Part shown: one piece after another, positions 2,575 through 64,000 of the stretch
How the letters are laid out: every line of letters starts with the position of its first letter
How positions within the stretch are numbered: the first letter of the stretch is position 1
Assembly (NCBI RefSeq): GCF_000702325.1
Contig: NZ_KL370891.1
Location: 952,917-1,016,916 of the forward strand
Reading direction: 5' to 3'
Source: Thiomicrorhabdus sp. Milos-T2
Lineage (GTDB): Bacteria; Pseudomonadota; Gammaproteobacteria; Thiomicrospirales; Thiomicrospiraceae
DNA length: 64,000 bases
Program-made: the position numbers and the translations under genes
Notes under the pieces: model-generated
Seen by the model: the letters and a program-made list of their open reading frames with translations, nothing else
Told to the model about the DNA's origin: nothing
The model's database searches: none

Positions 2575-3102
2575 ATGAGTACGCCATTGGAATCAAAACA
2601 ACTTGCAAAAATTCTTACTTACCTGGGTACCTTGCCATTTTGGTATGGCATTTTATCCGCATTGAATTTAACCCCCTTAACTTTAGAGCTCAATAGTCAT
2701 CTGCAGCCTTTCGATATATCACAGGTTTTAATGATTTATACCTTGGTGATTTTGAGTTTTATTGCGGGGATTCATTGGGGCTTTGCACTTAATTTTCATG
2801 AGGACTTAGACTTAAGCGGTGCTAATCATGCTGAATCAGTTTCCTCTAAAGGCCAACTCTCTAATCGCTTATTAATCAGTTCTAACGTCATCGCGCTTTG
2901 GGCTTGGATTGTTGTTGCGTTTTTTGAAGATTACCAGGCCTGGTTGGGGCTAGCCATTGGGTTTGTCGTTTTGCTGTTGATAGATAAAGCTTGGATAAAG
3001 TTAGATCAATCCATTCCCTGGTTTTGGACATTACGTTGGCATGCTAGTTTGATTGCAATTACCTGCTTATTGATGAATGCCATGATGAATGGCATATTAT
3101 GA
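2575..3102 (+). CDS. DUF3429 family inner-membrane protein
   Basis: A 175-residue polytopic protein with about four or five hydrophobic segments and the family signature LPFWYGILSALN followed by SFIAGIHWGFAL. The function of DUF3429 proteins is not established. An exact ACCAGGCCTGGT palindrome (2933-2944) lies inside the gene and encodes YQAW. The stop codon overlaps the start of the exonuclease gene (ATGA at 3099-3102), so translation of the two is probably coupled. Confidence 0.8.
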   Translation: MSTPLESKQLAKILTYLGTLPFWYGILSALNLTPLTLELNSHLQPFDISQVLMIYTLVILSFIAGIHWGFALNFHEDLDLSGANHAESVSSKGQLSNRLLISSNVIALWAWIVVAFFEDYQAWLGLAIGFVVLLLIDKAWIKLDQSIPWFWTLRWHASLIAITCLLMNAMMNGIL

Positions 3103-4589
3103 CCAGGCCTGGTAACTTAGTAGAAAGTTGGCCAAAAGACGACAAGCTTAGTGACTTTATCTTTTTAGATGTTGAAACGACTGGAGGTAAACATCAACGA
3201 GATGGTATTACCGAAATTGGCTTGCTGCATGTTTGCCAAGGCGAACTGGTACAGACGTGGCACAGTTTGATACAGCCTTTAAAATCGATTCCTCCATGGA
3301 TTACTCAATTAACGGGAATATCCAATCAAATGGTGCAAAATGCACCTACATTTAAAGAGGTTGCAGAAGAGTTAGCAGGCCTGGTAGATGGTAAAATACT
3401 GGTCGCACATAATGCTCGATTTGATTATGGTTTTCTGAAAAGTGAATTTAAGCGAGTTGGCATTGAGTGGAACGCGTTAACGCTCTGCACAGTAAAGCTT
3501 TCTAGGGCATTATTTAAAGAACACAAACGTCATGGTTTAGATCAAATTGTTGAGCGCTTTGATTTGCAATGTGACCATCGCCACCGTGCGTTGGATGATG
3601 CAAAAGTGCTGTGGGATTTTTTTCAATTGTTACCGCAATATCATTCTCAACAGACTATTTGGCAAGCGGTTAAGTCACAACTTAAACAACCCAGTTTTCC
3701 ACCCAATTTAGCCCCAAAAGTACTTGATGGCTGTGATGATGTTGCTGGAGTTTACCGTTTTTATGGTTCTGCAGGTCAAGTTTTATATGTGGGTAAATCG
3801 GTTAATTTACGTAGCCGAATTTTAAGCCACTTTAATGGTGATTACCGTCATTCTAAAGACTTACAAATTAGCACAGAAATACATGATTTAGATTGGACGG
3901 TTTGTAGTGGTGATTTAGGTGCACAGCTTTTAGAAGCTCAAGAAATAAAACGCTTAAGTCCTAAGTTTAACGTTAAATTGCGTAAGCTCACTAAGCTTTG
4001 GAGCTTAGTAAGTAATCTTGATAAACAAGGTTATGAGACGCTTCAAGTAGTCAGTTTAAATGGATTGTATGCCGATGATTTAAGTGGGCTGTATGGTTTG
4101 TACCGTTCAAAAAAACAGGCGATTAATGCGATTGAAAAACTCGCTAATGAACAAAGTTTATGTCATCGTCTAACGGGTTTAGAAAACAAAAAAAGTGGTG
4201 CTTGTTTTGCTCATCAACTTAAAAAATGCAAAGGAGCTTGTGTCGGCAAGGAATCTGCTCAAATCTACAATTTAAGACAGTCTATGGGGTTACAACCTTT
4301 GCAGCAAAAAGCTTGGCCGTGGAATGAAGCGGTTATTGTTAAAGAGTCTAATGCCTCAGACAGTGAAAGTGATGAGCAAATCCTTCATGTCATTTATCAA
4401 TGGTGTTGGTTAGGCAGTGTAAGTAATGAACAAGAATTGCATGAATTATTGGAGACTCAGCAGCAAGATTACGTGATTGATTTAGATCAATATCGTATAT
4501 TGTGTAAGTTTCTACTCACTCCGCCAAAAGGTTTAACCATTACACCAGTAAGTGTTGGTCTAGATTTGGTTGAAGAGAATATATTGTGA
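3099..4589 (+). CDS. DnaQ-type 3'-5' exonuclease fused to a GIY-YIG nuclease domain
   Basis: A 496-residue two-domain nuclease. Residues about 20-180 form a DEDDh exonuclease: FLDVETTGG holds the first D and E, VAHNARFDYGFL the second D, and RHRALDDAKVLW the terminal H and D. From about residue 215 a GIY-YIG endonuclease follows (GVYRFYG then LYVGKSVNLRSRI), the type found in UvrC and Cho. A cysteine-containing stretch (SGACFAHQLKKCKGAC) resembles the region after the GIY-YIG domain of UvrC. Proteins of this architecture are suspected to act in DNA repair or proofreading, but a defined role is not known to me. The start codon overlaps the upstream stop and lies directly on an ACCAGGCCTGGT palindrome (3102-3113), so the N-terminus reads MTRPGN. 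Confidence 0.85.
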   Translation: MTRPGNLVESWPKDDKLSDFIFLDVETTGGKHQRDGITEIGLLHVCQGELVQTWHSLIQPLKSIPPWITQLTGISNQMVQNAPTFKEVAEELAGLVDGKILVAHNARFDYGFLKSEFKRVGIEWNALTLCTVKLSRALFKEHKRHGLDQIVERFDLQCDHRHRALDDAKVLWDFFQLLPQYHSQQTIWQAVKSQLKQPSFPPNLAPKVLDGCDDVAGVYRFYGSAGQVLYVGKSVNLRSRILSHFNGDYRHSKDLQISTEIHDLDWTVCSGDLGAQLLEAQEIKRLSPKFNVKLRKLTKLWSLVSNLDKQGYETLQVVSLNGLYADDLSGLYGLYRSKKQAINAIEKLANEQSLCHRLTGLENKKSGACFAHQLKKCKGACVGKESAQIYNLRQSMGLQPLQQKAWPWNEAVIVKESNASDSESDEQILHVIYQWCWLGSVSNEQELHELLETQQQDYVIDLDQYRILCKFLLTPPKGLTITPVSVGLDLVEENIL

Positions 4590-4597
4590 CGAGTAAT

Positions 4598-4666
4598 ATG
4601 ACGAATAATATGACTATTTATGAACAGTTTTATGGATGGTTTAATCAACAAAGAGGTCTGTCATGA
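4598..4666 (+). CDS. Possible 22-codon leader ORF coupled to DUF2237 gene
   Basis: ATG at 4598 opens a short frame (MTNNMTIYEQFYGWFNQQ...) whose TGA at 4664-4666 overlaps the ATG of the DUF2237 gene at 4663. An in-frame GTG at 4586 could extend it. The overlap resembles translational coupling. It contains the SD-like AGAGG used by the next gene, so it may simply be spacer. Confidence 0.3.
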   Translation: MTNNMTIYEQFYGWFNQQRGLS

Positions 4667-5028
4667 CAAAATTAAATTTATTGGGTAGTGCTTTAGAGTT
4701 GTGTTCTGAACAACCGTTAACAGGGTTTTATCGCGATGGAAACTGTCGTACTGATGAATTTGACCGAGGGCGTCATGTTGTATGTGCTCAAGTTACCGAA
4801 GAGTTTTTAGAGTTTTCAAAACAGCAGGGTAATGATTTGAGTACCCCAATACCAGGAAGTTTTCCAGGATTAAAACCCGGTGACTTTTGGTGTTTATGTG
4901 CTTTACGTTGGGTAGAGGCATTTCGAGCGGGAAAAGCCCCCAAAATACGTTTTACAGCTACGGATGAAGCTGTATTGAAATACGTAAGCCTAGAAGAGCT
5001 CAAACCTTTTGCTTTGGATTTACACTAG
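4663..5028 (+). CDS. DUF2237 family protein
   Basis: A 121-residue soluble protein matching the DUF2237 pattern: GFYRDGNCRTDEFDRGRHVVCAQVTEEFL near the N-terminus and PGLKPGDFWCLCALRWVEA in the middle. The cysteines in GNC, VVC and FWCLC are family hallmarks. The family has no established activity. SD-like AAAGAGG precedes the ATG. It ends a small gene run with DUF3429 and the DnaQ/GIY-YIG nuclease, and meets the convergent flavin reductase gene 50 bases on. Confidence 0.8.
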   Translation: MTKLNLLGSALELCSEQPLTGFYRDGNCRTDEFDRGRHVVCAQVTEEFLEFSKQQGNDLSTPIPGSFPGLKPGDFWCLCALRWVEAFRAGKAPKIRFTATDEAVLKYVSLEELKPFALDLH

Positions 5029-8136: not shown

Positions 8137-8866
8137 TACGTATAGATATTTGACCTGAAGCCACCAGGGTTAAAGCGCCATTGATTTCGATTTTGGCATG
8201 TCCATGAGAATCAAAACCTCTGTAAATCCCATGTTCAGTTTTTAATGCATCTGTATTGGTTTGATTAGGCTGTATAACCTGAACGGATTCACCCAGATTA
8301 AAAAAGCCATGCTTTACCCAATATTCATTAAGTTCTTGTTCATCATAGTGAACAAGTTTTGATTGCTGAACTTTTTGATGAAAAAGACTAAATAAATCAT
8401 TAATCTCAAACCAGCTTGTACTGCTAGAAGAGGCGACTTCATTCATGATTTCTGGAGAGTCTCGGTTAACGCCAATTCCAATGATAAAAGCACGGTAGTC
8501 TTTTTGCATAACTTGTTCAATTAACATACCAGCAACCTTACCTTGTGAATTGAATAAATCATTGGGCCATTTTAAATACAAAGTATCACCGGTTAATTCC
8601 ACTAGGCTTTGATGCAAAAGGGCGGCAATGTGTAAACTTACCAGGCCTGTTAAAGGATATTTTTGCGGTAGAGGATACGCAAGCGAGAAAATGGCGGATT
8701 TGTCATTAGTTAGCCAATGTCTTTTTTGTTGCCCATAGCCCGCGGTTTGCTTTTGTGTGGTACAAAATACGGGTTGTTGTGGTTGGTTTTGGGCAACGTA
8801 GTCTTTTAAATATCGACTGGTTGAATCGACGTTTTCAAGTTGAATGATTTGGTAATCTTTAGGCAT
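8129..8866 (-). CDS. birA: Biotin-[acetyl-CoA-carboxylase] ligase, no repressor domain
   Basis: A 245-residue biotin protein ligase that activates biotin with ATP and attaches it to the biotin carrier domain of acetyl-CoA carboxylase. The biotinyl-AMP loop is visible as TAGYGQQKRHW, followed by KWPNDLF and GKVAGMLIEQ, all classic BirA/LplA-fold motifs, and a C-terminal SH3-like domain (GIYRGFDSHGHAKIEI). The N-terminal helix-turn-helix of E. coli BirA is missing, so this is a monofunctional enzyme and cannot repress biotin genes through that domain. A near-palindrome ACCAGGCCTGTT lies inside (8640-8651). Confidence 0.92.
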   Translation of the reverse strand: MPKDYQIIQLENVDSTSRYLKDYVAQNQPQQPVFCTTQKQTAGYGQQKRHWLTNDKSAIFSLAYPLPQKYPLTGLVSLHIAALLHQSLVELTGDTLYLKWPNDLFNSQGKVAGMLIEQVMQKDYRAFIIGIGVNRDSPEIMNEVASSSSTSWFEINDLFSLFHQKVQQSKLVHYDEQELNEYWVKHGFFNLGESVQVIQPNQTNTDALKTEHGIYRGFDSHGHAKIEINGALTLVASGQISIRKI

Positions 8867-8939: not shown

Positions 8940-11504
8940 TCAAATTTTGGGTTTTCGTTGTCTATGAGTTTGTAAAGAACGTCCCGCCTTTTCTTCTAGA
9001 GGTTTTTCTGGCCAGCGGTGTTTAGGGTATTTACCACGCATCTCTTTAGCAATCTCAAAATAAGAATTTTGCCAAAAATAGTTTAAATCGCTGGTAATTT
9101 GAATCGGTCTGCGAGCAGGTGAAAGCAGTTCAAAGCTTAATGCGACCTTGCCAAAACCGATTTTAGGGGAACGCAATTCACCAAATAGTTCTTGCAGTTG
9201 AATTGAAATAGTGGGTTGTTTTCCAATGGTGTAATCTATGGCGACATTTTTCCCAGAAGGCGCTTGATAATGGGTGGGTGCTTGTTGTTCTAATGCTTGG
9301 CTGGCTTCATAGCTTAACTTGGCTTGCAGAAGCGCCAGTAAGTCAATTTTTTTAAGGTCCGTCCATTGTTTAACGGAGCTTAAATAAGGCGCGCACCACT
9401 GGTCAAAATCGTCTACTAATTCTGTTTGGCTAAAACCTTTATAGTCATCGTTATATTGGGCTAACCAATTAATGCGCTTTAACCAAGCTAGAGTTGCCTT
9501 ATTCCATGGCATATCTGCCAGTTGGTTCTGTTTTAAGTAATCGATTATCGCAGATTGAATTTGTTGTTTAGAGAGCTCTGTTAGTTCAGTTTGTTGTATA
9601 GTGATAGCGCCCAATTTTTTGGTTTTAATACCTTCTACTCGTTGTTTACTAGGATTAAATTTAACCAAAGAGTGTTGAGTGATTTGCTCAGTAAATAGTT
9701 CTTCAATTTCTGTTTGACTAATAGGCATCGCCATAAAAACCTTACCATCACGTCTTTGTCCATCTAGATTGGTGACCACCAAATATTCGTTTTGAATAAG
9801 GCCATCTTGTTCTGGTAAAAAAGTGCCTTTTCCATTACTCATTAAATAGCGGTTGTCTTGCTGACCACGGCGTTTTGCTATTCTATCGGGGTAAGCGATG
9901 GCAATGGCTTGTGCCATTGTGGGAGAAAGAGCTCCTGAAATTCTAGATATTGGTTGTTCTTGAGTCGGGTTCAATGGCTTTTTATTGAGTCGTTTGTACC
10001 AGTTTTTACTATTTGTTAAGGCTTCTTTAGCGGCAGATTTAACCAGGCCTGGTAGACTGCCTTTAGGGTTTTGTTTATAACCGTTAAACGCCTGAATACG
10101 GTCTTGTAAGTTGGCACTATAACTTTGAGATAATAAATCTCTTTCACCTAGAATGGCGGCAATATCACAGAGCTGTTCTTGCTTAGAATTATCCGCTTGT
10201 GGGTAAAGTAATAATTTGGCTAAACGCGCAGATAAACCCAGTTTAATTGCTTTGTTGGGCGTTAAAAAACCTAAGGTTTGTAAAAGTTGTTGTGCAATCT
10301 CAATATGAGCTTTTGGGGGAGGGGTTAACCATTGCAGCTCAAATAGATTGGTGACACCCCACATAGCGGTTTCTAAACAAAGGTCGGTTAAGTCAGAATT
10401 TAAAATGGATTCTTGTTCAAAATCGGCTCGTGTGGTTTGGTCAGATTCGGTCCATAAGCGATAGGCATTTCCTGCCTGTAAACGTCCCGCACGCCCCGCT
10501 CTTTGTTTAGCAGACGCTTTGGATATTTTTTGAGTTAACATGCGGGTCATACCACTGCTAGAATCATAACTAGCCTGTCTTACCAAGCCAGAATCTACCA
10601 CAATATGAATCCCCTCTATTGTTAAGCTGGTTTCAGCAATATTGGTAGCAAAGATAATTTTACGCTTTGCGTTTTCACTGGCTTGTAATGCTAAATTTTG
10701 TTGTTGCGGGGTTAAACTGCCGTGCAGGGGAATAAGTTGGTAAGGTAGGTTAGGCCAAGCCTGCTCTGCAAGTTTTATGGCCTGTGTAATTTCGGCTTTA
10801 CCAGGTAAAAAAACTAAACAATCTCCCAAATGAGTTTGCATAGCAGTATTTAAGGTGCTGATTAAATGCTGATTAATTAATGACCAGCCAGAGTTGTTTT
10901 GAGATTGTGCGGTTTTTACTCCCGCAGTTAAATAATGATAATCCACCGGAAAGCTTCGCCCAGGGCATTCAATCACGGGAGCAGAATCTAGAAATTGACT
11001 TAAATTATCGGTTTCCAGCGTGGCCGACATAACCAGTAATTTTAAATCTTCACGCAGTGCAGACTGGGTATCTAGAGTTAATGTTAAGGCTAAATCCGCC
11101 TCTAAAGAACGTTCATGAAACTCATCAAAAATGATTAGGCCTGTATCGGACAGTTCAGGGTCATTTTGTAAACGCCTAATTAAAATACCTTCAGTAATAA
11201 TCTCTAATTTTGTCTCTGAGCCACTTTTTTTATCATTTCTAACTTGGTAACCCACTGTTTTGCCAACAGGTTCATTCAGTTGCTTGGCTAAAAAACTCGC
11301 TAAAGCCCTTACGGCTAAACGGCGAGGTTCTAACAAAATTATTTTTTGGTCTGTAAAGCAGGCAGTTTTTAATAGGTGTAATGGCACTAGCGTTGATTTA
11401 CCCGCTCCCGGTTCTGCTTTAAGAATGGTATTGAGATTATTGGCAACGGTTTGTTCTATTTGCGGTAATAATGCATGAACTGGCAGGCCTGGTGTTTGAG
11501 TCAT
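8940..11504 (-). CDS. hrpB: ATP-dependent helicase HrpB (DEAH-box)
   Basis: An 854-residue DEAH/DExH helicase close to the usual HrpB length. Walker A is EPGAGKST (about residue 35), Walker B is DEFHERSLEADL, motif III is SATLE, and motif VI is SAKQRAGRAGRL; the HrpB-specific C-terminal domain (RSPKIGFGKVALSFELLSPARRPIQIT) is present. HrpB proteins are nucleic-acid helicases of poorly defined role, possibly in RNA metabolism. An exact palindrome ACCAGGCCTGGT (10042-10053) is read as PGLV, and a near copy lies at 11482. It is divergent from gdhA across a GAGACC-type element. Confidence 0.93.
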   Translation of the reverse strand: MTQTPGLPVHALLPQIEQTVANNLNTILKAEPGAGKSTLVPLHLLKTACFTDQKIILLEPRRLAVRALASFLAKQLNEPVGKTVGYQVRNDKKSGSETKLEIITEGILIRRLQNDPELSDTGLIIFDEFHERSLEADLALTLTLDTQSALREDLKLLVMSATLETDNLSQFLDSAPVIECPGRSFPVDYHYLTAGVKTAQSQNNSGWSLINQHLISTLNTAMQTHLGDCLVFLPGKAEITQAIKLAEQAWPNLPYQLIPLHGSLTPQQQNLALQASENAKRKIIFATNIAETSLTIEGIHIVVDSGLVRQASYDSSSGMTRMLTQKISKASAKQRAGRAGRLQAGNAYRLWTESDQTTRADFEQESILNSDLTDLCLETAMWGVTNLFELQWLTPPPKAHIEIAQQLLQTLGFLTPNKAIKLGLSARLAKLLLYPQADNSKQEQLCDIAAILGERDLLSQSYSANLQDRIQAFNGYKQNPKGSLPGLVKSAAKEALTNSKNWYKRLNKKPLNPTQEQPISRISGALSPTMAQAIAIAYPDRIAKRRGQQDNRYLMSNGKGTFLPEQDGLIQNEYLVVTNLDGQRRDGKVFMAMPISQTEIEELFTEQITQHSLVKFNPSKQRVEGIKTKKLGAITIQQTELTELSKQQIQSAIIDYLKQNQLADMPWNKATLAWLKRINWLAQYNDDYKGFSQTELVDDFDQWCAPYLSSVKQWTDLKKIDLLALLQAKLSYEASQALEQQAPTHYQAPSGKNVAIDYTIGKQPTISIQLQELFGELRSPKIGFGKVALSFELLSPARRPIQITSDLNYFWQNSYFEIAKEMRGKYPKHRWPEKPLEEKAGRSLQTHRQRKPKI

Positions 11505-15011: not shown

Positions 15012-15368
15012 TGGTGGAGCTGGGAGGAGTCGAACCCCCGTCCGCGAAGCCGCCATCTAAAAATCTACATGCTTATTTGGTCTATTCATTTAACCTTAAT
15101 GCTACCCGGCCAGCAGGGATCATATTAGGCGAGTTTGTTAATTTGATGCTAAATACCCAAACACGTACTTAACACGGTTCTATGTAAGATGATACAGCGA
15201 TCAGGGGCCATAGACAACTTGCCTGAGCTGCACTAGCGGCCTAAGCTGCTAGAGAGTAGTTATCGTCGTTTGCAACTATAACAAAATTGAAATAAAGATT
15301 TACGTGCATCATTCAGGCACGACATGCATCTCAAATTTTGAACTCCCCGTCGAAACCAGTACAGCCCC
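15012..15368 (-). ncRNA. ssrA: Transfer-messenger RNA
   Basis: A one-piece tmRNA of 357 nucleotides that rescues stalled ribosomes together with SmpB. The 5' end reads GGGGCTGTACTGGTTTCGAC and the 3' end carries the T-arm GGGGGTTCGACTCC, the acceptor strand and an encoded CCA (complement TGG at 15012-15014). The tag reading frame resumes at 15273 and ends with TAG at 15241-15243; it encodes ANDDNYSLAA after the alanine supplied by the charged tmRNA. The tag is close to the ANDENYALAA of E. coli. smpB lies upstream on the same strand. Confidence 0.96.
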
Positions 15369-15682: not shown

Positions 15683-16159
15683 CTAAAAATCGTTTTTGAG
15701 GATTCGTTGTTTGTCTCGGTTCCAGTCACGCTCTTTCATTGTGGCGCGTTTGTCGTGGAGTTTTTTACCTTTGGCGATACCTATGGCGAGTTTCACTTTC
15801 CCTTGTTTCCAATAAAGTTCTAGCGGAATCACAGTTAAACCATCCACATCGACTAATCCACGTAAACGATTAATCTCTCTACGGTGCATTAATAACGGAC
15901 GAGTGCGGAGTGGATCATGCACATTATGTGTTGAAGCTGTAATTAACGGAGTGATTAAAGCACCGAACAACCAGGCCTGGTCGTTCTTAAACATGACATA
16001 ACTTTCACCTAACTGTATTTTGCCGGCTCTAAGGCTTTTTACTTCCCAGCCTTCTAGGCTAATACCAGCTTCTAGTGTGTCTTGAATAAAAAATTCAAAA
16101 CGGGCTTTTTTGTTTTTAGCGATGCTGTTGGATTTAACTTGAGGTTTCTTTTTGGCCAT
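15683..16159 (-). CDS. smpB: SsrA-binding protein SmpB
   Basis: A 158-residue tmRNA partner that places tmRNA in the ribosomal A site. The sequence has the expected [37 protein letters not shown] and the basic C-terminal tail [18 protein letters not shown]. The position next to ssrA is classical. An exact palindrome (15970-15981) lies inside the gene and is read as DQAW, at a place where family members carry different residues. Confidence 0.96.
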
Positions 16160-16317
16160 GTAATTTTGTCTTTAGTGCAATAGTAAGTTTATTTTAGAAA
16201 TGAATTATACCAGGCCTGGTTAAGGCGTGTTGGTTAAGGATTGCTAGTCAAAGCTTGTTTAAACGTCATGGTGATTATGTTTATGCTTTTCAAGTGTCTT
16301 GGTTAATTCCGTGTCAA

Positions 16318-17064
16318 CTATTTAAGTTTACGTTCAGTTAAACAAAAATCCATAACTTCACTTGGTACCACCTTCATCATACGTTGTGTGTCCCAACTAA
16401 ACTGACGTTGCCAGCCTTGGGAGGTTTCTAGCTCAAATTTTACAGGAGTTTGATTTTTTACCGCTTGCTGTATTTGTTTAAAAAAGTCTCTGGCGTCTTC
16501 AGGGGTTTTTCCCGGTCTAAAGCTAGGCATTTCTTGGTAAGTAAAAGAGTAGAAAAAACTCATACCTAACAGGCCTGGTTTGATTTTATTGGCAGTTTTA
16601 AACAGATTGGTTAGATGATTTTTTTGACCGCCAACAGAAATATCATAGGTTTCATAGTCATCATTTGTACTGACTTTTAAGTCCTACTTATCATCATAAA
16701 TATAACCATGTTTGGCGAATTTATCTGAGGCATTAGGTAGCTCATTGTCACTCATTAAATTTTTTGTTTGTTCCGTGTATTGCAAGCTAAAATTAGTAAA
16801 ATAGGGTTTACAACGCAATTGAATGGCGGCTTGTTTACCAAAATTGGCCGGAATAAAGAGCACCTTAGCTTCTTTAATTTTGTCGCTAAAGTCATCCGTT
16901 TGGTATGTGACCAACCAGCTGTCTTTAATAAAAGGACTGCCTTTAGTTGGGTTTTCAATTAATTGTTCTTCACCCGCTAGGGCTGCCTGACTACTTAATC
17001 CTATAGCCATAAATAGGCTAAATATTAGCGTTGTTTTTGCCGAATTTGTTTTAATTAACTGCAT
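16318..17064 (-). pseudogene. Secreted hypothetical protein interrupted by one amber codon
   Basis: The frame from ATG 17064 has a signal peptide (residues 1-30, SLFMAIGLSSQAALA) and runs to TAG at 16684-16686 after 126 codons. Beyond that TAG the same frame stays open for 40 codons (DLKVSTNDDYETYDISVGGQ...) and continues straight into the segment ending at 16318. The whole is a 248-residue envelope protein with a single internal stop. The fragments alone would be a truncated exported half and an 81-codon tail. I do not recognise the family. A near-palindrome AACAGGCCTGGT (16568-16579) lies in the second half. Either a recent nonsense mutation or suppression explains it. Confidence 0.75.
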
Positions 17065-17664: not shown

Positions 17665-17955
17665 ATGAGTGATATGCTTTCAATAGAAGTAGCTTACGCT
17701 TTAGAAGATGTACAGTACTTGTTTAGTGAAAAGGTAAAACAAGGTACAACGGTCATTGAGGCTTTAAATCAATCTAAGTTATTGGTTGAATTACCAGGCC
17801 TGGTCATTGATAAAGTGGGAATCTTTGGTAAGTTAGTTTCATACGATACCGTATTACGAGAGGGCGATAGAATTGAAGTGTATCGCCCATTAAAAGTAGA
17901 CCCGCGTGAGCGTAGAAGACAAAAAGTTGAAGAAGAGCGCAAAGCCGCTAAGTGA
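17665..17955 (+). CDS. rnfH: RnfH/RatB family ubiquitin-fold protein
   Basis: A 96-residue beta-grasp protein with IEVAYALEDVQYLFSEKV at the N-terminus and the characteristic DRIEVYRPLKVDPRERRR at the C-terminus. The function is not settled. It is the second gene of a ratA-rnfH operon that ends at the strong terminator at 17994. The exact palindrome at 17793-17804 is read as PGLV. Confidence 0.9.
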   Translation: MSDMLSIEVAYALEDVQYLFSEKVKQGTTVIEALNQSKLLVELPGLVIDKVGIFGKLVSYDTVLREGDRIEVYRPLKVDPRERRRQKVEEERKAAK

Positions 17956-19327: not shown

Positions 19328-20998
19328 CTAAGCCGTTTTGTTCTGTGCGGTTGCTAACATCTCTTTAGCGTGATTTAGAGTTTGTTCGGTAAGCGTTAGG
19401 CCGCCTAACATTCTGGCGAGCTCTTCGGTTCTTTGCTGAGGTTCAAGTTTATTTACTTGGGTTGTTGTCACTTCGTTTTCCGTCTTTTTAGCGATATGTA
19501 AATGATTGTGGCCGTGTGAAGCAACTTGAGCTAAGTGGGTTATGGATAAGATTTGTTTGTCATTTCCGAGCTGTTGCATTTTTTGCCCCACGACCTCAGC
19601 AATGCCACCGCCAATGCCTACATCCACTTCATCAAAAATCAGCGTTGGTAAACTGGCTACTTCTGAGGTGGCAACTTGAATCGCCAGACTAATCCTTGAA
19701 AGTTCACCACCAGAGGCCACTTTAGCTAAGGGCTGCAAGGGTTGACCTTTGTTGGCGGTTACTAAAAATACCGTTTTGTCTGTACCTAAAACGGTTGCTT
19801 GGTCACTGTCTGTTAATTGCACCGCAAATTCACCGTTAGGCATTCCAAGGGTTTGCATACCTTCGCTAACAATTTTGGACAAGGCTTTAGCGGCTTTTTG
19901 GCGCGATTTTTTAAGTGTATTGGCTTGTTTTTGATAAGTTAACCAGGCCTGGTCAAGTGCTTCTTTTAGTGTTTCTAAGGAAGCATCAGACTGTTCTAAG
20001 CGCATTAAATCATCTTGGATTTGTTGGCGTTTTTCAACGAGCTGTTCAGGGTCAATATTGTATTTTTTAGCCAAACCAAAAAGGTGAGATAAACGTTCTT
20101 CAACAAAACTGAGTTGTTGAGGGTCTAAATCAACTTGTTCTGCTTGGTGTTGAATTTCGCTTGCGGCTTCTTGAACCTCAATTAAACTGCTGTTTAATTG
20201 TTTAATGGTGCTTTCTAAGCTTGGGCTAAACGCCAAAATACTTTCTAAGCTTTGTACTGCATGGTTAAGCGCATCGACTGCGCCTTGTTCCTCTTCAATT
20301 TGAGAGTAGGCATTTTCACAAGCTTGTTTAATTTCACTGGCATGAGAAAGTTGGCTTTGTTCTTCAGACAAACTTTCAAATTCACCCTCTTGAGGGTTTA
20401 TCTCTTCAAACTCGCTGTTTTGAAAATTAAGCAGTTCTAATTTACTTTGATAATCTGCTTGTTCTTCTTCCAGTTTTTGTAGTTCACGAGTGAGCTTTTG
20501 CCAGGTTTTAAAGTCAGTTTGAGTTTGTTCTACCAGGCCTGGGTGATTGGCGTAAGCATCTAATAAATCTAATTGTTTATGACTGGATAATAACGTTTGG
20601 TGTTCGTGTTGACCGTGAATATCAATTAAAAAACTACCTAAGGTTTTAAGTTGGTTTGCGGCAACAGGGTAACCATTTATATAAGCTTTAGATCGGCCTT
20701 CTGAGGTAACGGTTCTTCGTAGATAACATTGAGTTTCATCATCTAACTCTTGTTCTGTTAACCAACTCTGCACCTGTGGAAGTTGTTCAATATCAAATAG
20801 CGCCGTAACATCCGCTTTAGGGGTATTGTGCCTGACTAAACTACTGTCGGCACGTTCGCCTAAGGCTAGACCTAATGCATCTAATAAAATAGATTTACCG
20901 GCACCCGTTTCACCCGTTAAGGTGGTAAAGCCGGTATTAAACTGTAGTTGAAGTTTCTCAATTAACGCTAGGTTTTGAATAGCTAGTTCTTGAAGCAT
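19328..20998 (-). CDS. recN: DNA repair protein RecN
   Basis: A 556-residue SMC-like ATPase that acts at double-strand breaks. Walker A is GETGAGKS (about residue 31), the middle is a long coiled coil rich in E, Q and L, and the C-terminal half has ASGGELSRISLAI (ABC signature) and TLIFDEVDVGIGG (Walker B). The length is normal. One exact palindrome (19942-19953, read as DQAW) and one variant (20532) lie in the coiled-coil region. No LexA box was recognised upstream. Confidence 0.95.
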   Translation of the reverse strand: MLQELAIQNLALIEKLQLQFNTGFTTLTGETGAGKSILLDALGLALGERADSSLVRHNTPKADVTALFDIEQLPQVQSWLTEQELDDETQCYLRRTVTSEGRSKAYINGYPVAANQLKTLGSFLIDIHGQHEHQTLLSSHKQLDLLDAYANHPGLVEQTQTDFKTWQKLTRELQKLEEEQADYQSKLELLNFQNSEFEEINPQEGEFESLSEEQSQLSHASEIKQACENAYSQIEEEQGAVDALNHAVQSLESILAFSPSLESTIKQLNSSLIEVQEAASEIQHQAEQVDLDPQQLSFVEERLSHLFGLAKKYNIDPEQLVEKRQQIQDDLMRLEQSDASLETLKEALDQAWLTYQKQANTLKKSRQKAAKALSKIVSEGMQTLGMPNGEFAVQLTDSDQATVLGTDKTVFLVTANKGQPLQPLAKVASGGELSRISLAIQVATSEVASLPTLIFDEVDVGIGGGIAEVVGQKMQQLGNDKQILSITHLAQVASHGHNHLHIAKKTENEVTTTQVNKLEPQQRTEELARMLGGLTLTEQTLNHAKEMLATAQNKTA

Positions 20999-21128
20999 AA
21001 CGGTATCAATTCTATTTAGTAGTAGTTATAACGTGAGACGCTTTACAAGCCTCTCAACGTAGTTTAAAAAAGCCTAATTAAAATATACCAGGCCCGGTAA
21101 GTCTGGCTTAAGGCTCTCTATTTGGTGC

Positions 21129-22004
21129 TTATGAAAGTTTATCGCCCCAGCGCAATTTGGCTCGTAACAGCTCAAAGTGGTCGTGTCCTTTTGGATGCAG
21201 TAATCTCAAATAATGAGGGTTACGTTTTACAAAGGTTTGATGAGAGGGTGAAATATCTTGCGTAATTTGACCATCACAAATAATTTGTGCGGTTTTTTCA
21301 CAATATTCATGTGCTCGCAGTTCAATTTCACTGTCACCACTAATCACATAAGGACGGGTGCTCATGGTATGTGGGTTAAGCGAAACCAAAGAAAATGCAT
21401 CTAAATTGGGATCTAAAATTGGCCCACCTGCAGACAAAGCGTAAGCGGTAGAACCGGTAGGTGTCGCTATAATCATCCCATCAGAACGTTGGCTATTTAA
21501 AAAGCGACCATCTACAAAGGTTTCAAACTCAATCATGCGAGGTGAGTCGATTTTATGAATCACCACATCATTAATGGCGCGTTCTTCAAATATTAAATGG
21601 CCCTTATCAAAAACACTCACTTTTAACACATTACGGCGTTCTTCCTGATAAACCCCAGCAAGCACTTCTTCCATCGTAGTTATCATGTCGTCGGGTGAAA
21701 TATCGGTTAAAAACCCTAAACGACCTAAGTTAATCCCTAATATCGGAATGTCATAATCGGCAATATTACGTGCAACATCTAAAAAGGTACCATCACCGCC
21801 CACCATAATCGCTAAATCGATTTTTTCACAGAGTGCTTCACGTTCTAAAAGTGGGGCGTGTTTATTTTTTGGAAACTGTTCGCAAGAGGGTTTATCTAAA
21901 TAAACAGTGCGTGAATGTTTAAGCAAAAAGTCAACTAGTACACCAATGTTTTCCCAACACTGATTACCCGAGTACTTTCCAAAAATACCAATATTCTGAA
22001 ACAT
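21129..22004 (-). CDS. nadK: NAD kinase
   Basis: A 291-residue enzyme that phosphorylates NAD to NADP. GGDGTFLDVAR is the catalytic GGDG motif, followed by LGINLGRLGFLTDI, and NDVVIHK and ATPTGSTAYALSAGGPI are the substrate loops. It lies upstream of recN on the same strand with 130 bases between and is divergent from hrcA. A degenerate palindrome ACCAGGCCCGGT (21087-21098) sits in the spacer towards recN. Confidence 0.95.
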   Translation of the reverse strand: MFQNIGIFGKYSGNQCWENIGVLVDFLLKHSRTVYLDKPSCEQFPKNKHAPLLEREALCEKIDLAIMVGGDGTFLDVARNIADYDIPILGINLGRLGFLTDISPDDMITTMEEVLAGVYQEERRNVLKVSVFDKGHLIFEERAINDVVIHKIDSPRMIEFETFVDGRFLNSQRSDGMIIATPTGSTAYALSAGGPILDPNLDAFSLVSLNPHTMSTRPYVISGDSEIELRAHEYCEKTAQIICDGQITQDISPSHQTFVKRNPHYLRLLHPKGHDHFELLRAKLRWGDKLS

Positions 22005-22076
22005 TTTCTAATCCATCCAAATGGCCAAACTCAGCTCTTTAAAGAGTGAGCGGCTTAATAAATATTGAACTAAGTC

Positions 22077-28480: not shown

Positions 28481-28620
28481 AAGGTTACCAAGAAAACGGG
28501 ACGCTACCCTTGTTCATTAGAATAAAAACAAGGATTACCAGGCCTGGTAGCCTTTGTCTTTTAGTAAACTTGAAGCAAGATGCTACAATTTGTAGTGGTT
28601 AAAGTTTAAAGGAGAGTAGT

Positions 28621-29826: not shown

Positions 29827-29872
29827 TCTTTACCAGGCCTGGTAAATTGATTTAAAAAAAATCCTTTTTTGC

Positions 29873-30629: not shown

Positions 30630-30741
30630 ACAAGTCAACAAACAATTTAAACATTATTTTAAGAATTAACTTTTGACCCGACTTGGTGAAATTAAATTGA
30701 CCAGGCCTGGTAACTTAAGTTTGCAATTTGGAGTGAATCAA

Positions 30742-37218: not shown

Positions 37219-37436
37219 TTTTATTTAATCAACTATTTGTATGCTTAAATCTTGCTTAAATCTTGTTCTAATCCAGTTTGAATTTACCTAGTTTGGTAGA
37301 TAGTTTTACTTGCTGTTTAGCTTTAATTAAATAGTAAGTTTAAATTAACCAGGCCTGGTTAAATTAAAAGCGAAAAATGACCCGTAAATACAAATCTTAA
37401 AACTAACTAAATGCTGAATTTATGCGGTGATTAATA

Positions 37437-42951: not shown

Positions 42952-42987
42952 AACCAGGTCTGAAACCTACCAGGCCTGGTTTTTTTA
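42952..42987 (+). terminator. greA terminator built on an ACCAGGCCTGGT palindrome
   Basis: AACCAGG (42952-42958) pairs with CCTGGTT (42975-42981), followed by seven T. The right arm belongs to the exact palindrome at 42969-42980. Confidence 0.65.
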
Positions 42988-45014: not shown

Positions 45015-45686
45015 ATGAAACCTTCGTTTAATAAACTCTCAGACAAACAACGATTAAGAATTCAAACTCGGCATAGAGTTTCAGTAGAACGCTATGGTTA
45101 TCAGCCACAAGCTTTATATTGGAGTAATCGTGAAATTCAAGAAATACGCTTTCAGAAGTTAATTGAGATTTTACCTCCTGCCAATCAAATAAATCACCAG
45201 GCCTGGTCATTATTAGATGTAGGTTGTGGATTTGCTGACCTGTTAGACTATTTAAAAACAAACCATTATCAACCTGATTATACTGGGATAGATATCTCTC
45301 CAGAAATGGTACTTGGAGCTAAATCTATGCATCCTGATTTGGTTATTAAAGAGGGAGAGTTAAGTGATTTTGATTTCAATTGCTCTCAATTTGATTATGT
45401 GATGTTATCCGGAGCACTGAATGAAGTGGTTGAAACTGAAGTTGAAGGTACTCATGAGCAACAAGGTGAATATGCCAAATCAGTCATTAAAACAATGTAT
45501 TCAATCAGTAGGAAAGGTGTCGCATTTAATTTATTGGATGCACGTCACGAATGGGTAAACAGTCGTTATGACTTACAAAGTTTTTTACCTAATCAGATTG
45601 TGAGTTTTTGTCAGGGATTTGCTAATCGTGTTGAATTGGTTGAGGGTTATTTAGAAAATGACTTTACGATTTATTTGCGTAAATAA
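45015..45686 (+). CDS. Class I SAM-dependent methyltransferase
   Basis: A 223-residue methyltransferase. The AdoMet motif I is SLLDVGCGFADLLDYL, motif II is YTGIDISPEMVLGAK, and the post-motif IV region is FDYVMLSGALNEV. The substrate is unknown. An exact palindrome (45196-45207) directly precedes motif I and is read as HQAW. It lies 45 bases after the DUF455 gene and 18 before the ROK kinase gene. Confidence 0.82.
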   Translation: MKPSFNKLSDKQRLRIQTRHRVSVERYGYQPQALYWSNREIQEIRFQKLIEILPPANQINHQAWSLLDVGCGFADLLDYLKTNHYQPDYTGIDISPEMVLGAKSMHPDLVIKEGELSDFDFNCSQFDYVMLSGALNEVVETEVEGTHEQQGEYAKSVIKTMYSISRKGVAFNLLDARHEWVNSRYDLQSFLPNQIVSFCQGFANRVELVEGYLENDFTIYLRK

Positions 45687-45704: not shown

Positions 45705-46676
45705 ATGACCCAATTGCGTTTTGGTATAGATCTAGGCGGCACTAAAATTGAAATATTAGGTTTGATAACGGCTGATAATAAAGAATCACAGACGGTTTAT
45801 CAAAAACGTATTAATACGCCAAAAGGAAATTATTTAGAGACAGTTAACGCAATTGTCCAATTAGTTTTGCAGGCTGAAGCAGAACTTAAATTTACATTAG
45901 AATCGACTCTTAAAACAAACACTATCACGTCAAAAAAAAATACCCAAACTTCAATCTTACCAGGCCTGGTAGGTATTGGTATTCCCGGAGCAATATCTTC
46001 TAAAACGGGTAAGATCAAAAATGCGAATTCAACATGGTTAATGGGTAAAGACTTACAAGCTGATTTGCAAAGTGCTTTAAATCGGCCTGTAAAACTAGCG
46101 AATGATGCAAACTGCTTTGCACTTTCAGAAGCAACGGATGGCGCCGCTAAAGGTGCTAAAGTGGTTTTTGGAGTGATTATTGGTACGGGTTGTGGAGGAG
46201 GCATCGTGATTAATGGTCAAATTCTCAATGGTATTAATGCCATTGGAGGGGAATGGGGGCATAATCCTTTACCGTGGCAGTCTGAAAAGGAGGATTCTCA
46301 TCTCTGTTATTGTGGATTGAGTGGCTGCAATGAAACCTTTTTATCTGGAAGCGGGTTTGAAAATCATTATTTAAAACGAACTGGTCAGGTTAAAACTGCA
46401 AAAGAGATTGTGGCATTAAGTGAACAGGGTAATAAGGTTGCTGAACAGTTAATGCAAGATTACATCAAGTGGTTAGCTAAAGGTTTGGCGAGTGTGATTA
46501 ATATTATTGACCCAGATGTCATTGTGTTGGGTGGGGGAATGTCTAACATTGAAAGACTTTATACAGATGTTCCAAAAATCTGGCAAAACTGGGTGTTTAG
46601 CGATATGATTGAAACCAAACTCCTTGCTCCTAAATACGGCGATGCCAGCGGTGTAAGAGGTGCGGCTTGGTTGTAA
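45705..46676 (+). CDS. ROK family sugar kinase (fructokinase-like)
   Basis: A 323-residue kinase of the ROK group. FGIDLGGTKIEILGL is the phosphate-1 motif, GIGIPGAIS and ANDANCFALSEA surround the catalytic aspartate, and GTGCGGGIVI, GGEWGHNPLPW and the zinc site CYCGLSGCNETFLSGSG are conserved. Fructokinase (Mak) and N-acetyl-hexosamine kinases are the closest types; the sugar cannot be read from sequence. A non-conserved insert near residue 70-85 (TSKKNTQTS) is followed by an exact palindrome (45959-45970) read as LPGLVG. Confidence 0.87.
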   Translation: MTQLRFGIDLGGTKIEILGLITADNKESQTVYQKRINTPKGNYLETVNAIVQLVLQAEAELKFTLESTLKTNTITSKKNTQTSILPGLVGIGIPGAISSKTGKIKNANSTWLMGKDLQADLQSALNRPVKLANDANCFALSEATDGAAKGAKVVFGVIIGTGCGGGIVINGQILNGINAIGGEWGHNPLPWQSEKEDSHLCYCGLSGCNETFLSGSGFENHYLKRTGQVKTAKEIVALSEQGNKVAEQLMQDYIKWLAKGLASVINIIDPDVIVLGGGMSNIERLYTDVPKIWQNWVFSDMIETKLLAPKYGDASGVRGAAWL

Positions 46677-47604: not shown

Positions 47605-47793
47605 TGCTGGCAATTCGTAGTAATTACCAGGCCTGCTAATTTGCTGAAGTCTAAGTGAATTTGAGGTTTAAATAAGCTTTAATCTAAATGGCTTTAATAG
47701 ACGTCTTACTGTAAGCTACACGCTCTAGTTAACCCCCCTGGCAAATAAGATAAATTCGTTTATGCTCCTTTGCCAATTTGCAAAGAGTATATT

Positions 47794-49101: not shown

Positions 49102-49211
49102 TTTATTTATTGGATGAGTGCTTTACACGAGTATCGATCTTTTGGACAGCGCTCTAAATAAAGTTACCAGGCCTGGTAATTTGTTTAATTAACAAAAAAT
49201 AAGGACTCATA

Positions 49212-52653: not shown

Positions 52654-54825
52654 ATGAGTAGTTTACAAACTAAATTAGCCAATGAAATGTTTGATAACAA
52701 CCTGTGGTGGTCTTATTCCATTATTGAGGGTAAAGAGAATCTAGGACTATCAAAAGGTTTACAAAACCTTTTGGGAAGACCGGTGACCGTGCTTGAAGAT
52801 ATTATGGGTGAGTACGAAACTGAGTTGCTTAGATTAAAAATATCAGAAGCTTATCAAGATGAAGATGCTGAAAAATCGGATTTTGATATGCGTTTTATTG
52901 CCAGTTATGAAACCTTAAAAGGCAAGCGCTCTTTTCAACATCAGTTAAGAATCTTTACGTTGAGTGGTGAGAAAATTATTTGGACAACCTGTCTTGATGT
53001 TTCCGAAATGGTAGCCTTAGAACGTGAGATGGTTGAGGCTCAAGGCCGGTTAAATTTAAATCAACTTTATGAAAAACAAACGGCTTTAGAAGAGCGTAAC
53101 GCCTTTATTACCCGTTCTTATAATAAGCAATCTCGTTTTCTTGCGTTATTAAGTCATGAATTACGTTCACCACTATTAGGTATTAGAAGTTTGGTTAAAC
53201 GCATTCGCTCCGAAATGGATGTTTCACCTGACGTTAAGACTTTGCTCAAAACCATTAGTATGACGGCAGAACAGTCTACTTATTTAGTGAATGATATTTT
53301 GACTTATTCACAAACTGAGTATGACGGAATTACGCTTCATCCAACTGAAGTGTGTTTGCCAGAATTATTAGAAAATGTAAAACAACTGGCTAAATCTATT
53401 GCTTCAGATAAAGACTTAATTTTGTCTTTAGTTTATTTAGGTGAACATGAAAAAGTGATTGTAGATGGGGTGCGTTTAACCCAAGTTTTAATTAATTTAA
53501 TTGTGAATGCCATTAAATTTACACAGTATGGAGGGGTGAACATTGAAGTTCGTGAGTTAGTGAATAACCGTTTTGTTTTTAAAATCACTGATTCCGGTGA
53601 GGGTATTTCTCCAGAAAGACAAAAACAGATTTTTGAACCTTTCGCACAATTGGAATCCGATAATGGCAAATATACTTCAAATACTCAGTTTTTAGGCGCT
53701 GGATTAGGTTTGTTTGTTGTAAAACAGTTGGTTGAGTTAATGGGCGGGAAAATTAAAGTGACTTCTCAAAAGGGAGTCGGAACGACATTTGAATTTGATT
53801 TAAAGATTAAATGTGTTGATAGCCCAAGTCGTAGTTTATCAAGCAAAACTGATGAAACTCAAATGACCGAACTTATTAAGTTAAATAAAAGTAAAACTCG
53901 CTCAGAAGACTTGCCGTTAAAAAATAAAAAAGATGTGAGTAAATACAAGGCGGACGAGAATCAGGAAAGTCCTAAATTAGATCAATGTCGTGTTTTGGTT
54001 GCAGATGACTCAAAAATTAATCGTATGGTCTTAGCAGGTTATTTAGCAGACTTAACGTGTAATGTGGTTGAAGTAAGAGATGGTAGAGAGGCCTGGAAGG
54101 TTTTTCAAGAGCAGGATTTTGATTATGTCTTACTAGATATTCAGATGCCATATTTGGATGGTGTAGAAGTCAGTAAAAAAATTAAACAACATTATGATGA
54201 GGGGAAATCTAAGCAACTTAAAGGCGTATTTGCGATTACGGCAGGGGGAGATTCATCAGGATTTATATCAGAACATGAAAAACCTGAAAGTGTTGGATTT
54301 GATGCTTGGTTGGTAAAACCCGTTAATAAAAAACAGATTGTTGAACTCTTAGAACAAGATTATAGACCCTTAGAAAAACATTCAAACTTGAAAAGTCTGG
54401 TTAGTGACCATACAAAACCATTAATTAACGAAATTAGTAGCGAAATTGGTAACGAAAGCACTGAAGAAGTTAGCCAGGAAATTGAAACTCAACAAAAATT
54501 AGCTTTAATCTCTGATGTACCTAAACAATTTCATCAATTAATTGAACCGTTTATTGTTGAGATGAATGATGGCCTTAAGGAACTTGAGCAATTTAATGTT
54601 TTAAATAATCGTGAAGCCATTAAAAAAAAGGCGCATTATCTAAAAGGTAATTGTATGTTGTTTCAGTTACCAGGCCTGGTAGATCTATTTAGGCATTTGG
54701 AAGTGCTTCAACAAGAAGATAAATTATTTAGGTTTGAAAAAACTCAAAAAACTTTACAAAATGTTGCATTAAACGTGAAAAGCCTTGAGAATTCGGTATT
54801 AATTGGTCATAATAAACAAATATAA
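52654..54825 (+). CDS. Cytosolic hybrid histidine kinase with receiver and HPt domains
   Basis: A 723-residue signalling protein without membrane helices. Residues 1-125 look PAS-like (LGLSKGLQNLLGRP, then GEKIIWTTCLDVSEM), followed by a coiled coil. The dimerisation box is ALLSHELRSPLLGI (His near 167); the ATPase has LINLIVNAIKFTQYGG, TDSGEGISPE and GAGLGLFVVKQLVELMGG. The receiver (about 447-570) has VADDSKINRM and YVLLDIQMPYLDG. The C-terminal HPt has AHYLKGNCMLFQLPGLVDLF, with the LPGLV encoded by an exact palindrome (54669-54680). It would pass phosphate along a four-step relay to the adjacent LuxR regulator. Confidence 0.92.
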   Translation: MSSLQTKLANEMFDNNLWWSYSIIEGKENLGLSKGLQNLLGRPVTVLEDIMGEYETELLRLKISEAYQDEDAEKSDFDMRFIASYETLKGKRSFQHQLRIFTLSGEKIIWTTCLDVSEMVALEREMVEAQGRLNLNQLYEKQTALEERNAFITRSYNKQSRFLALLSHELRSPLLGIRSLVKRIRSEMDVSPDVKTLLKTISMTAEQSTYLVNDILTYSQTEYDGITLHPTEVCLPELLENVKQLAKSIASDKDLILSLVYLGEHEKVIVDGVRLTQVLINLIVNAIKFTQYGGVNIEVRELVNNRFVFKITDSGEGISPERQKQIFEPFAQLESDNGKYTSNTQFLGAGLGLFVVKQLVELMGGKIKVTSQKGVGTTFEFDLKIKCVDSPSRSLSSKTDETQMTELIKLNKSKTRSEDLPLKNKKDVSKYKADENQESPKLDQCRVLVADDSKINRMVLAGYLADLTCNVVEVRDGREAWKVFQEQDFDYVLLDIQMPYLDGVEVSKKIKQHYDEGKSKQLKGVFAITAGGDSSGFISEHEKPESVGFDAWLVKPVNKKQIVELLEQDYRPLEKHSNLKSLVSDHTKPLINEISSEIGNESTEEVSQEIETQQKLALISDVPKQFHQLIEPFIVEMNDGLKELEQFNVLNNREAIKKKAHYLKGNCMLFQLPGLVDLFRHLEVLQQEDKLFRFEKTQKTLQNVALNVKSLENSVLIGHNKQI

Positions 54826-58596: not shown

Positions 58597-58707
58597 TCAA
58601 TGTACCAGGCCTGGTTGTTTTAAAGTAACCAGGCCTGGTTGTTTGTTTTTAGAGAGCTCATAAATCCTTTAAGGTGAGTTTTCATTATGTTTTAAGAGAG
58701 AAATTTC

Positions 58708-62902: not shown

Positions 62903-62955
62903 TATTATTGCATTTAATCATTATCGAATCTTGCAAAGATTTCTGTTACCAAATA

Positions 62956-63333
62956 CTACTCAGAATAGGTCACACAGTTACGATCATTTTCCCAGACGGT
63001 TAGGCTGTGCATGTTGACTTCAGGGCTTTTAATTCTTTTTTCGATCTCTTTATAGAGATAGACAGCAATATTTTCAGCAGTAGGATTTAGTTCTTTAAAA
63101 TGTGGGTGGTCATTTAAGAAGGTATGATCTAGCTCTTTTACGACTTCCTTTGCATGACCTTTAATCTCTTTAAAATCGATTACCATGCCAATTTCATTAA
63201 GTTGAGAACCCGCTACTTGCACTTCAATTTTCCAGTTATGGCCATGAAGTTTTGCACAGTCACCAGGATAACCTTTTAGGCTATGAGCAGCAGCGAAATC
63301 AAGTAATGTTTTTAAAACAAATGTTTGGGCCAT
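62956..63333 (-). CDS. queD: 6-carboxytetrahydropterin synthase QueD
   Basis: A 125-residue T-fold enzyme of queuosine (7-deazaguanine) synthesis, converting dihydroneopterin triphosphate to 6-carboxytetrahydropterin. Zinc ligands are seen in FAAAHSLKG and LHGHNWKIEV, the catalytic cysteine in GDCAKLHGH, and the conserved EL DHTFLN and PTAENIAVYL segments follow. No preQ1 riboswitch was recognised upstream. Confidence 0.94.
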   Translation of the reverse strand: MAQTFVLKTLLDFAAAHSLKGYPGDCAKLHGHNWKIEVQVAGSQLNEIGMVIDFKEIKGHAKEVVKELDHTFLNDHPHFKELNPTAENIAVYLYKEIEKRIKSPEVNMHSLTVWENDRNCVTYSE

Positions 63334-63664
63334 AATAGAGTCAATCTTCTCAGTTTTTAATAAAGTTTTACCACCCGTTAAGAGGTCAGCTAGTAAGATG
63401 AAACCTTTGTTCGAGTTGGTGATGCAAGAAAGATGTAAGAAAGAAATAAAAGAATTCTTTAAACTAATTCAGAGAATTCTAGCCTTATAAATTCTAACCT
63501 AATAAATATATCGACTCTTGCAAAATCTCGCTACACAAATAGTTGTATTTTAAGCCTTGCTGCGAGAGGTTGCTGATTATAACTAAAATGATTAACGATT
63601 AAAAGCTAACTTTTTGAAAGCTAAGATTTTTCTTAACTTCTTTAATCTTCAATTTATTGATCAG
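63334..63664. other. Spacer between queD and ispA
   Basis: A 331-base spacer with no gene. A weak echo of the GAGACC terminus (GAAACCTTTGTTCGAG at 63400) and AATTC-rich repeats (63450-63480) are present, but nothing I can name. Confidence 0.5.
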
Positions 63665-64000
63665 TTAATGTTTTCTAGCGGCAATGTACTCTATTAATGT
63701 TATTAAGAACGGACTTTTTAGCTTTAAAATAGAGAGTTCTTTTTTGGCTTGTGTAATTAAATCGTCTCTATATTCTTTAGCTGGTTGTAAACCGAGTAAT
63801 TTGGGGTAGGTTGATTTGTCGAGTGCGATGTCACTACCTTGAGGTTTGCCTAAAGTATCGGTATCGCCTTCGATATCCAAAATATCGTCTTGAACTTGAA
63901 AGGCTAGACCAATCAATTCTCCTAATTTAACCAGGCCTGGTTGAATAGTAGTGTAGTTTGGAGAAGCGGTAGCCCCCATTAGTAATGCGCATTGAATTAG
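63665..64000 (-). CDS. ispA: Polyprenyl diphosphate synthase (IspA-like), 5' part outside
   Basis: The C-terminal 111 codons of an isoprenyl synthase; the rest lies beyond the window. The second aspartate-rich motif is GLAFQVQDDILDIEGD, followed by KSTYPKLLGL, typical of farnesyl/geranyl diphosphate synthases (IspA). The enzyme condenses IPP with DMAPP or GPP. An exact palindrome (63930-63941) is read as PGLV just before the motif. Confidence 0.85.
   Translation of the reverse strand, partial: LIQCALLMGATASPNYTTIQPGLVKLGELIGLAFQVQDDILDIEGDTDTLGKPQGSDIALDKSTYPKLLGLQPAKEYRDDLITQAKKELSILKLKSPFLITLIEYIAARKH

Follow-up and report, generated by a model that had tools for sequence, protein, structure and literature searches.

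In a 64,000-nt stretch of the genome of the sulfur bacterium Thiomicrorhabdus sp. Milos-T2 (contig NZ_KL370891.1, positions 952,917 to 1,016,916; hereafter the window) we analyzed a 12-bp palindrome, ACCAGGCCTGGT, that is iterated throughout the genome. With a probability of roughly 60%, our comparative analyses suggest that a motif resembling DNA-uptake signals is spread family-wide in the Thiomicrospiraceae and that this word is its palindromic dialect. The motif would work like the DNA uptake sequences (DUS) of Neisseriaceae and the uptake signal sequences (USS) of Pasteurellaceae, without being a member of either sequence family. We base this interpretation on the occurrence of one word per genome, clade-specific dialects, permissive placement, inverted pairs, absence from the single mobile element inspected and a gap-free origin in a protein; uptake itself, a receptor and molecular drive are what we infer from them. 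Some papers refer to the family as Piscirickettsiaceae. Family genomes are designated below with G numbers (G000 being the genome under study) and loci with L numbers.

Abundance of the word in the window and in the genome

The window contains 19 exact copies of ACCAGGCCTGGT and six copies with one mismatch, located between positions 2933 and 63941, so that our recount reproduced both the coordinates and the numbers of the original prediction (19 exact and at least six one-mismatch copies). In 100 dinucleotide-preserving shuffles of the window, matches at up to one mismatch averaged 0.04 and never exceeded 1, vs. 25 in the real sequence. At the G+C content of the window (37.6%), a first-order Markov model predicts about 0.001 exact copies, which matches the value estimated earlier. 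In the whole genome (2,655,367 bases in two contigs) the word occurs 498 times exactly and 744 times if one mismatch is allowed, an excess larger than originally claimed, and the reversed word, used as a control, had no copies. A 444-kb sample of G000 held 89 exact copies (200 per Mb), of which 41 lie between genes and 48 within predicted genes of diverse types; genes were called simply as the longest open reading frames (ORFs), and some starts are too early. This split over gaps and varied genes does not agree with enrichment caused by one mobile element, and the share of copies in genes supports the previously proposed resemblance to the cyanobacterial highly iterated palindrome HIP1, which is likewise tolerated in proteins. 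The exact 12-mer was not found in the open-access literature searched. As judged from LysS, the nearest named relatives are Thiomicrorhabdus arctica (89%) and T. marina (88%), with one contig of a metagenome-assembled genome (MAG) above them (90%).

Anatomy of the site

Alignment of the 89 sites of the 444-kb sample showed that the flanks of the word mirror each other, with AA at −5/−4, Y at −2, R at +2 and TT at +4/+5. The site is therefore wider than 12 bp and tends toward AANYW-core-WRNTT, a 22-bp string overall. Since only 12 of the 82 sites tested (the 89 minus seven near predicted gene starts) matched every flank position, we regard the flank pattern as a preference. It was alike in 41 sites lying well inside predicted genes and in the 41 intergenic ones. 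By our arithmetic, the A and T tracts are about 20 bp apart in G000 (12-bp core) and about 21 bp apart in G027, where the core of its alternate palindrome has 10 bp and the tract is shifted. Among palindrome genomes, G021 has mostly T at −2 and a weaker AA, vs. AANYW in G000.

The original prediction described the unit as two abutting CCWGG pentamers around AGGCCT. Outside the contexts of the 8-mer core CAGGCCTG, the 444-kb sample contained 202 CCAGG and 207 CCTGG vs. 218 expected for each, and 62 AGGCCT vs. 66 expected. The enrichment therefore belongs to the long word, and the pentamer description had to be abandoned, all the more as the alternate word of G027, ACCGGCCGGT, contains no CCWGG.

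Dialects in the Thiomicrospiraceae

The exact 12-mer occurs at least once in 41 of 62 family genomes (0 to 718 copies per genome), while none of the 365 gammaproteobacteria outside the family, taken from a class sample of 369 genomes, had more than five copies. Counts of the core CAGGCCTG were bimodal, with 236-1,173 copies in 32 genomes (palindrome-rich) and 0-74 in the remaining 30. Five of these 30 hold related but different words. ACCGGCCGGT reaches 1,025 copies in palindrome-poor G027 and 0-15 in the other 61 genomes; ATCTRCCAGGBTGGG is found 289 times in G007, 289 times in G008 and 339 times in G013, and 0-1 times in the other 59; AATCRCCAGGGGTGG has 241 copies in G014, one in another genome and none in the rest. 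The latter two words are not palindromes. The sites of G000, G008 and G014 have in common CCAGG with an A tract a few bases upstream, and a AATCRCCAGGGGTGG-type site lies upstream of lysS in the Hydrogenovibrio MAG locus L012. In the samples taken each genome had one word, at 83-450 sites per Mb. Four words are thus abundant in different genomes, each as hundreds of near-identical short copies genome-wide, and in both respects the motif is of the functional DUS/USS kind.

On a quick ComEC tree of 51 genomes, which has some long branches, the palindrome state required seven changes vs. a mean of 16.0 for shuffled states, and none of 500 shuffles was as low. As the state spans genera g1, g3, g6 and g7 on this tree, the palindrome is probably ancestral to them, with several losses or replacements. 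Genomes G024, G046 and G047 (16-25 exact copies and 110-234 more at one mismatch) were at first read as eroding after loss of the word. We dropped this for G024 in favor of a dialect: the two outermost bases of the word are relaxed there, a 60-kb sample having 27 CAGGCCTG cores with other outer bases. The core counts of G046 and G047 are 653 and 859.

Twenty-five of the 62 genomes are without an assigned word. Word searches in this group covered samples of 20-140 kb each from G025, G030, G031, G042, G050, G051, G017, T. marina (L011) and the clade G037/G038/G044/G045 (86 kb pooled); G001-G003, G016, G018-G020, G036, G039 and G043 were left out of the sampling, and G004, G023 and G040 were represented by a 5-kb ComEC stretch only, that of G040 alone entering the search. 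Two candidates were rejected: AAGCGGTC-type words, resembling the USS of Pasteurella, had low counts and coding-like contexts in palindrome-free genomes, and the contexts of TGCAGACGCT in G017 (nine in 80 kb) resemble ordinary coding usage.

The clade G037/G038/G044/G045 (L178, L179, L260, L298-L305 and others) is without the palindrome and is sister to T. arctica and G034 on the ComEC tree. Its 86 kb contained 37 runs of at least seven G (431 per Mb), 29 of them in predicted genes, with a context tendency A-Gn-A-R-AAA-W-TTT (G7..9); seven other samples had 0-33 such runs per Mb, and first-order simulations gave 7-13 per 86 kb. This poly-G word may be a further replacement dialect of the clade. 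As separate observations, the 60-kb sample of G051 (L098-L100) contained a long array with about 96 repeats around GGCAGCTAAGAAA, and words repeated 18-81 times, resembling clustered regularly interspaced short palindromic repeats (CRISPR) or other repeat arrays, were seen in G007 and G008 (L101-L104).

Methylases and the word

A methylase had been proposed originally as one possible keeper of the site. We searched the genomes for two families, PF00145 (5-methylcytosine) and PF01555 (N4-methylcytosine/N6-methyladenine); D12, type I and type IIG enzymes lie outside this search. PF00145 was over the cut-off in 10 and PF01555 in 11 of the 32 palindrome-rich genomes, and both were missing over the cut-off in 16 of the 32, G000 included. 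Three of these 16 (G000, G009 and G056) have one hit below the cut-off; the reading frame at the hit in G000, taken from its ATG, gave no Pfam or NCBIfam match at E 0.001. Methylation is thus a poor explanation, and for these two families we rejected it as a general cause. The flank preferences, out to 20-22 bp, also make the site longer than that of a type II methylase. A specific form of this idea is a HIP-like motif produced by methylation together with biased mismatch repair (Elhai, 2015). An iterated palindrome exchanged for other palindromes would recall HIP1 and the alternate HIPs described in PMC4390886, yet asymmetric replacement words and wide flank preferences misfit a short methylase site, and with half of the rich genomes lacking both searched families over the cut-off we consider this origin the least credible of those discussed here.

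Placement of the copies

Copies of the words are more frequent between genes than the share of intergenic DNA predicts. Intergenic copies made up 41 of 89 in G000 (15% of DNA intergenic), 39 of 99 in G027 (12%), 36 of 46 in G008 (9%) and 23 of 31 in G014 (10%). Thus, 54 and 61% of the copies in G000 and G027 are coding vs. 85 and 88% of the DNA. Gaps between convergent genes were favored over divergent ones (12 vs. 2 in G000, 11 vs. 5 in G027, 20 vs. 2 in G008 and 8 vs. 3 in G014; 51 vs. 12 pooled over the four genomes, p = 1.4e-9, G014 alone p = 0.15). As a lone palindrome is its own inverse, inverted pairs were judged in the asymmetric dialects, which form five close pairs in G008 (offsets 25-34) and three in G014 (27-29). 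Intergenic enrichment and, in the asymmetric dialects, inverted pairs are again shared with signals of the functional DUS/USS kind.

The same features could be expected if the copies were transcription terminators or repetitive extragenic palindromic (REP)-like elements. The approximately 3-fold or higher intergenic enrichment (strongest in G008, with 36 of 46 copies), the convergent bias and the inverted pairs point in that direction, as do the A-rich left and T-rich right flanks and a mean folding energy of −6.1 kcal/mol for 28 nt around the 89 G000 sites, a value that stands without a shuffled control. Yet predicted genes contain 48 of the 89 copies of G000 and 60 of the 99 of G027, so that the location is not extragenic as in REP elements, and in G000 the copies in genes have the same flank preferences. 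In addition, the bare 12-mer folds at only −2.0 kcal/mol, and the copy in smpB is a substitution, not an insertion. We therefore find terminators or REP-like elements quite improbable as the general nature of the word.

The smpB copy encodes the peptide DQAWLF, at the place of which SmpB of PDB 6q98, which we take to be that of E. coli, has GEAFLF without a gap. According to this alignment the copy arose by substitution and not by insertion. The gap-free origin was deduced from one protein, since the site in hrpB fell outside the aligned part.

Stretches without the word were also inspected. The interval from 21098 to 28537 of the window, in which a DDE transposase gene (24789-25814) is located, is free of exact and one-mismatch copies alike; the originally claimed absence from insertion sequences holds for this stretch and has no wider scope. 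In the 22.6 kb of G000 at C1:402,646-425,251, which are without the exact word, there are two CAGGCCTG cores, both before an integrase/primase element of about 15 kb (L220 from 5194 on; C1:408 kb onward) that has zero cores. The part of the element at L220 5194-12000 starts with a tyrosine integrase and includes Toprim and DUF927 proteins, and the G+C content of the 20 kb sampled from this stretch is 32%. Viral carriage of the word was considered and rejected: one IMG/VR contig has the 22-bp string, and the single 12-mer in the 13.6 kb of it that were available is, by our own estimate, at about chance level.

A candidate DNA-uptake signal

According to the uptake-signal model, a putative DNA-binding protein on the cell surface, part of the type IV pilus/competence machinery, would prefer fragments that bear the word. 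Such fragments would enter the cell and be integrated into the chromosome by recombination more frequently than others. For this reason, molecular drive would make the word accumulate at all sites where it is tolerated by proteins and promoters. If the binding protein changed its specificity, the genome would drift to a new word, giving rise to dialects, and if the preference were lost, the word would decay. The comEC gene of G000 is full length (TIGR00361, 354.8 bits), and ComEC was found in 56 of the 62 genomes: 31 of the 32 palindrome-rich, all five with alternate dialects (36 of 37 motif genomes) and 20 of the 25 others (Fisher p = 0.035).

Several results weigh against this model. The Fisher test of the association of ComEC with the motif ignores kinship and genome completeness, and ComEC discriminates weakly, because 20 of 25 genomes without an assigned word also have it. 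ComP_DUS (PF16732), the receptor that strictly defines Neisseriaceae DUS, was over the cut-off in none of the 62 genomes, with one hit below it in G051, and in none of 14 control genomes, so this search had no positive control. A prepilin-pattern search of 564 kb (21%) of G000 found no pilin. A limited literature search returned no report of competence in Thiomicrospiraceae, and the accessible part of PMC6501319 has nothing on competence or repeats of such kind. A palindromic main signal is not the usual form of uptake signals, and flanks differ between palindrome genomes: G056 has A at −3, C at −2/−1 and no AA at −5/−4, and G006 has T at −2 to −5 (nine sites only). The coding share of copies in G008 and G014 is only 22 and 26%, under the published range for USS. 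The asymmetric words are mildly unequal in number between contig strands in G007 (123/166, p = 0.013) and G008 (127/162, p = 0.045), not so in G013 and G014. Of the gaps examined, the largest (269-305 kb, about 36 kb, with two cores) is not mobile DNA but, judged by the size of its ORFs (1,352 and 1,407 aa), an rpoBC/ribosomal-type region, and two further gaps at 543-583 kb are without explanation. Finally, copies were spaced more evenly than expected by chance in G006 (p = 5e-5) and in one G000 sample out of two (p = 0.02), an evenness not seen in the other G000 sample, G005 or G008.

Even spacing would be in line with a binding site for a dimeric chromosome-organising protein (a nucleoid, loop or segregation factor) kept by selection on chromosome function. 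The dyad with A/T tracts about two turns apart also resembles a dimer site, and tolerance to mismatches is graded: of the 56 one-mismatch copies in 444 kb, 45 deviate at half-site positions 1 or 2, the outermost, whereas position 6 is never affected. The low number of copies between divergent genes fits as well. However, one asymmetric 15-mer is common to three genomes and a fourth genome has a different asymmetric word, and both strands carry these words in near-equal numbers (26 vs. 20 in a 400-kb sample of G008). Replacing hundreds of sites genome-wide, several times in one family, would be hard for a selected chromosomal function. The replacement by different words, two of them asymmetric, is therefore better accounted for by an uptake signal, and we consider a chromosome-organising protein unlikely.

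In a wider and more tentative form of the uptake-signal model, which we hold at somewhat less than even odds, the words would constitute a third, independently evolved lineage of uptake signals, with an ancestral 20-22-bp palindrome recognized by a dimeric receptor and asymmetric (perhaps poly-G) dialects formed by receptor change. Two well-known families are available for studying how the specificity of uptake signals arises and switches, which is still an open question. In a third family, palindromic dialects would stand next to asymmetric ones in free-living chemolithoautotrophs, of which some are in culture, and together they would be a natural series showing genome-wide switching of uptake specificity. 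In that case both the idea of recognition by a dimer and the drive model could be tested directly, and the words could serve as practical genetic tags in organisms for which few tools are available. If the word were instead the site of a chromosome protein, it would, to our knowledge, be unusually dense for such a site.

Copies in the window

Exact copies are listed here without strand; all one-mismatch copies are on the plus strand (3374..3385, 8640..8651, 16568..16579, 20532..20543, 21087..21098 and 47626..47637). Among exact copies in or at predicted genes, 2933..2944 is within a DUF3429 gene (2575-3102), and 3102..3113 starts on the last base of that ORF, at the start of an exonuclease ORF (3099-4589). 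Further ones are inside an hrpB-like gene (10042..10053), in smpB (15970..15981, the DQAWLF site discussed above), in a small predicted gene (17793..17804), in a RecF/RecN/SMC-like gene (19942..19953), in a gene with a small-molecule methyltransferase fold (45196..45207), near the 3′ end of a hybrid histidine kinase gene (54669..54680) and in two other predicted genes (45959..45970 and 63930..63941). The copy at 30700..30711, on the 5′ edge of the dnaK ORF, is probably upstream of the true start, because the Pfam match begins at residue 27. Intergenic copies are located at 16209..16220, 28537..28548, 29832..29843, 37348..37359, 42969..42980 and, after a DEAD-box helicase gene, 49166..49177; that at 28537 is one of only two of the 41 intergenic copies in 444 kb to lie between divergent genes. 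Upstream of lysS there is a tandem pair (58604..58615 and 58628..58639); L009 and T. arctica (L010) have a corresponding pair, but T. marina (L011) does not.

Two other observations concern the window. A transfer-messenger RNA gene (15012-15368, tag ANDDNYSLAA) adjoins smpB. Four copies of GAATAGCTAGCTATTC (11680, 42247, 58275 and 61660) have GAGACCTTTGCACGA nearby, the latter with seven copies on both strands (2269, 42151, 58204, 58487, 61589, 11777 and 61733); together they form a short dispersed element resembling a miniature inverted-repeat transposable element or the end of an insertion sequence.

Comparison with known systems

The 18-nt palindrome of Caldithrix abyssi is likewise over-represented and commoner between convergent than divergent genes; unlike the Thiomicrospiraceae word, it has 38 exact copies, is intergenic according to its authors and differs in sequence (PMC5317091). 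Cyanobacterial HIP1 and the alternate HIPs are iterated palindromes that occur within as well as between genes and give way to other words in some genomes (PMC4390886), as does the word studied here. The latter differs in that the two methylase families searched are not required, the site is wider and some replacements are asymmetric.

The USS of Pasteurellaceae have variants within the family, as our word does, but are not palindromic (PMC12616744). In five Pasteurellaceae, 47-70% of USS are coding with 84-89% of the DNA coding (PMC2346458), and the coding shares in G000 and G027 are similar. The USS cores themselves are not iterated in the 64-kb window, AAGTGCGGT occurring once and ACAAGCGGT twice.

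DUS of Neisseriaceae are unrelated in sequence to our word, which has a palindromic main form and belongs to genomes with no ComP_DUS over the cut-off. Its density is also lower: G000 has about 190 copies per Mb and G027 about 360, vs. about 1,900 DUS in 2.2-2.3 Mb (PMC3630211). DUS are reduced in genomic islands (PMC7371117). In both cases a genome contains one short word in hundreds of copies, dialects follow clades, intergenic DNA is preferred and there are inverted pairs, which in DUS are terminator-like (PMC3630211). The similarities extend to dyads: Simonsiella muelleri has 1,294 overlapping DUS, paired with dyad symmetry, a possible sign of recognition by a dimer (PMC3630211).

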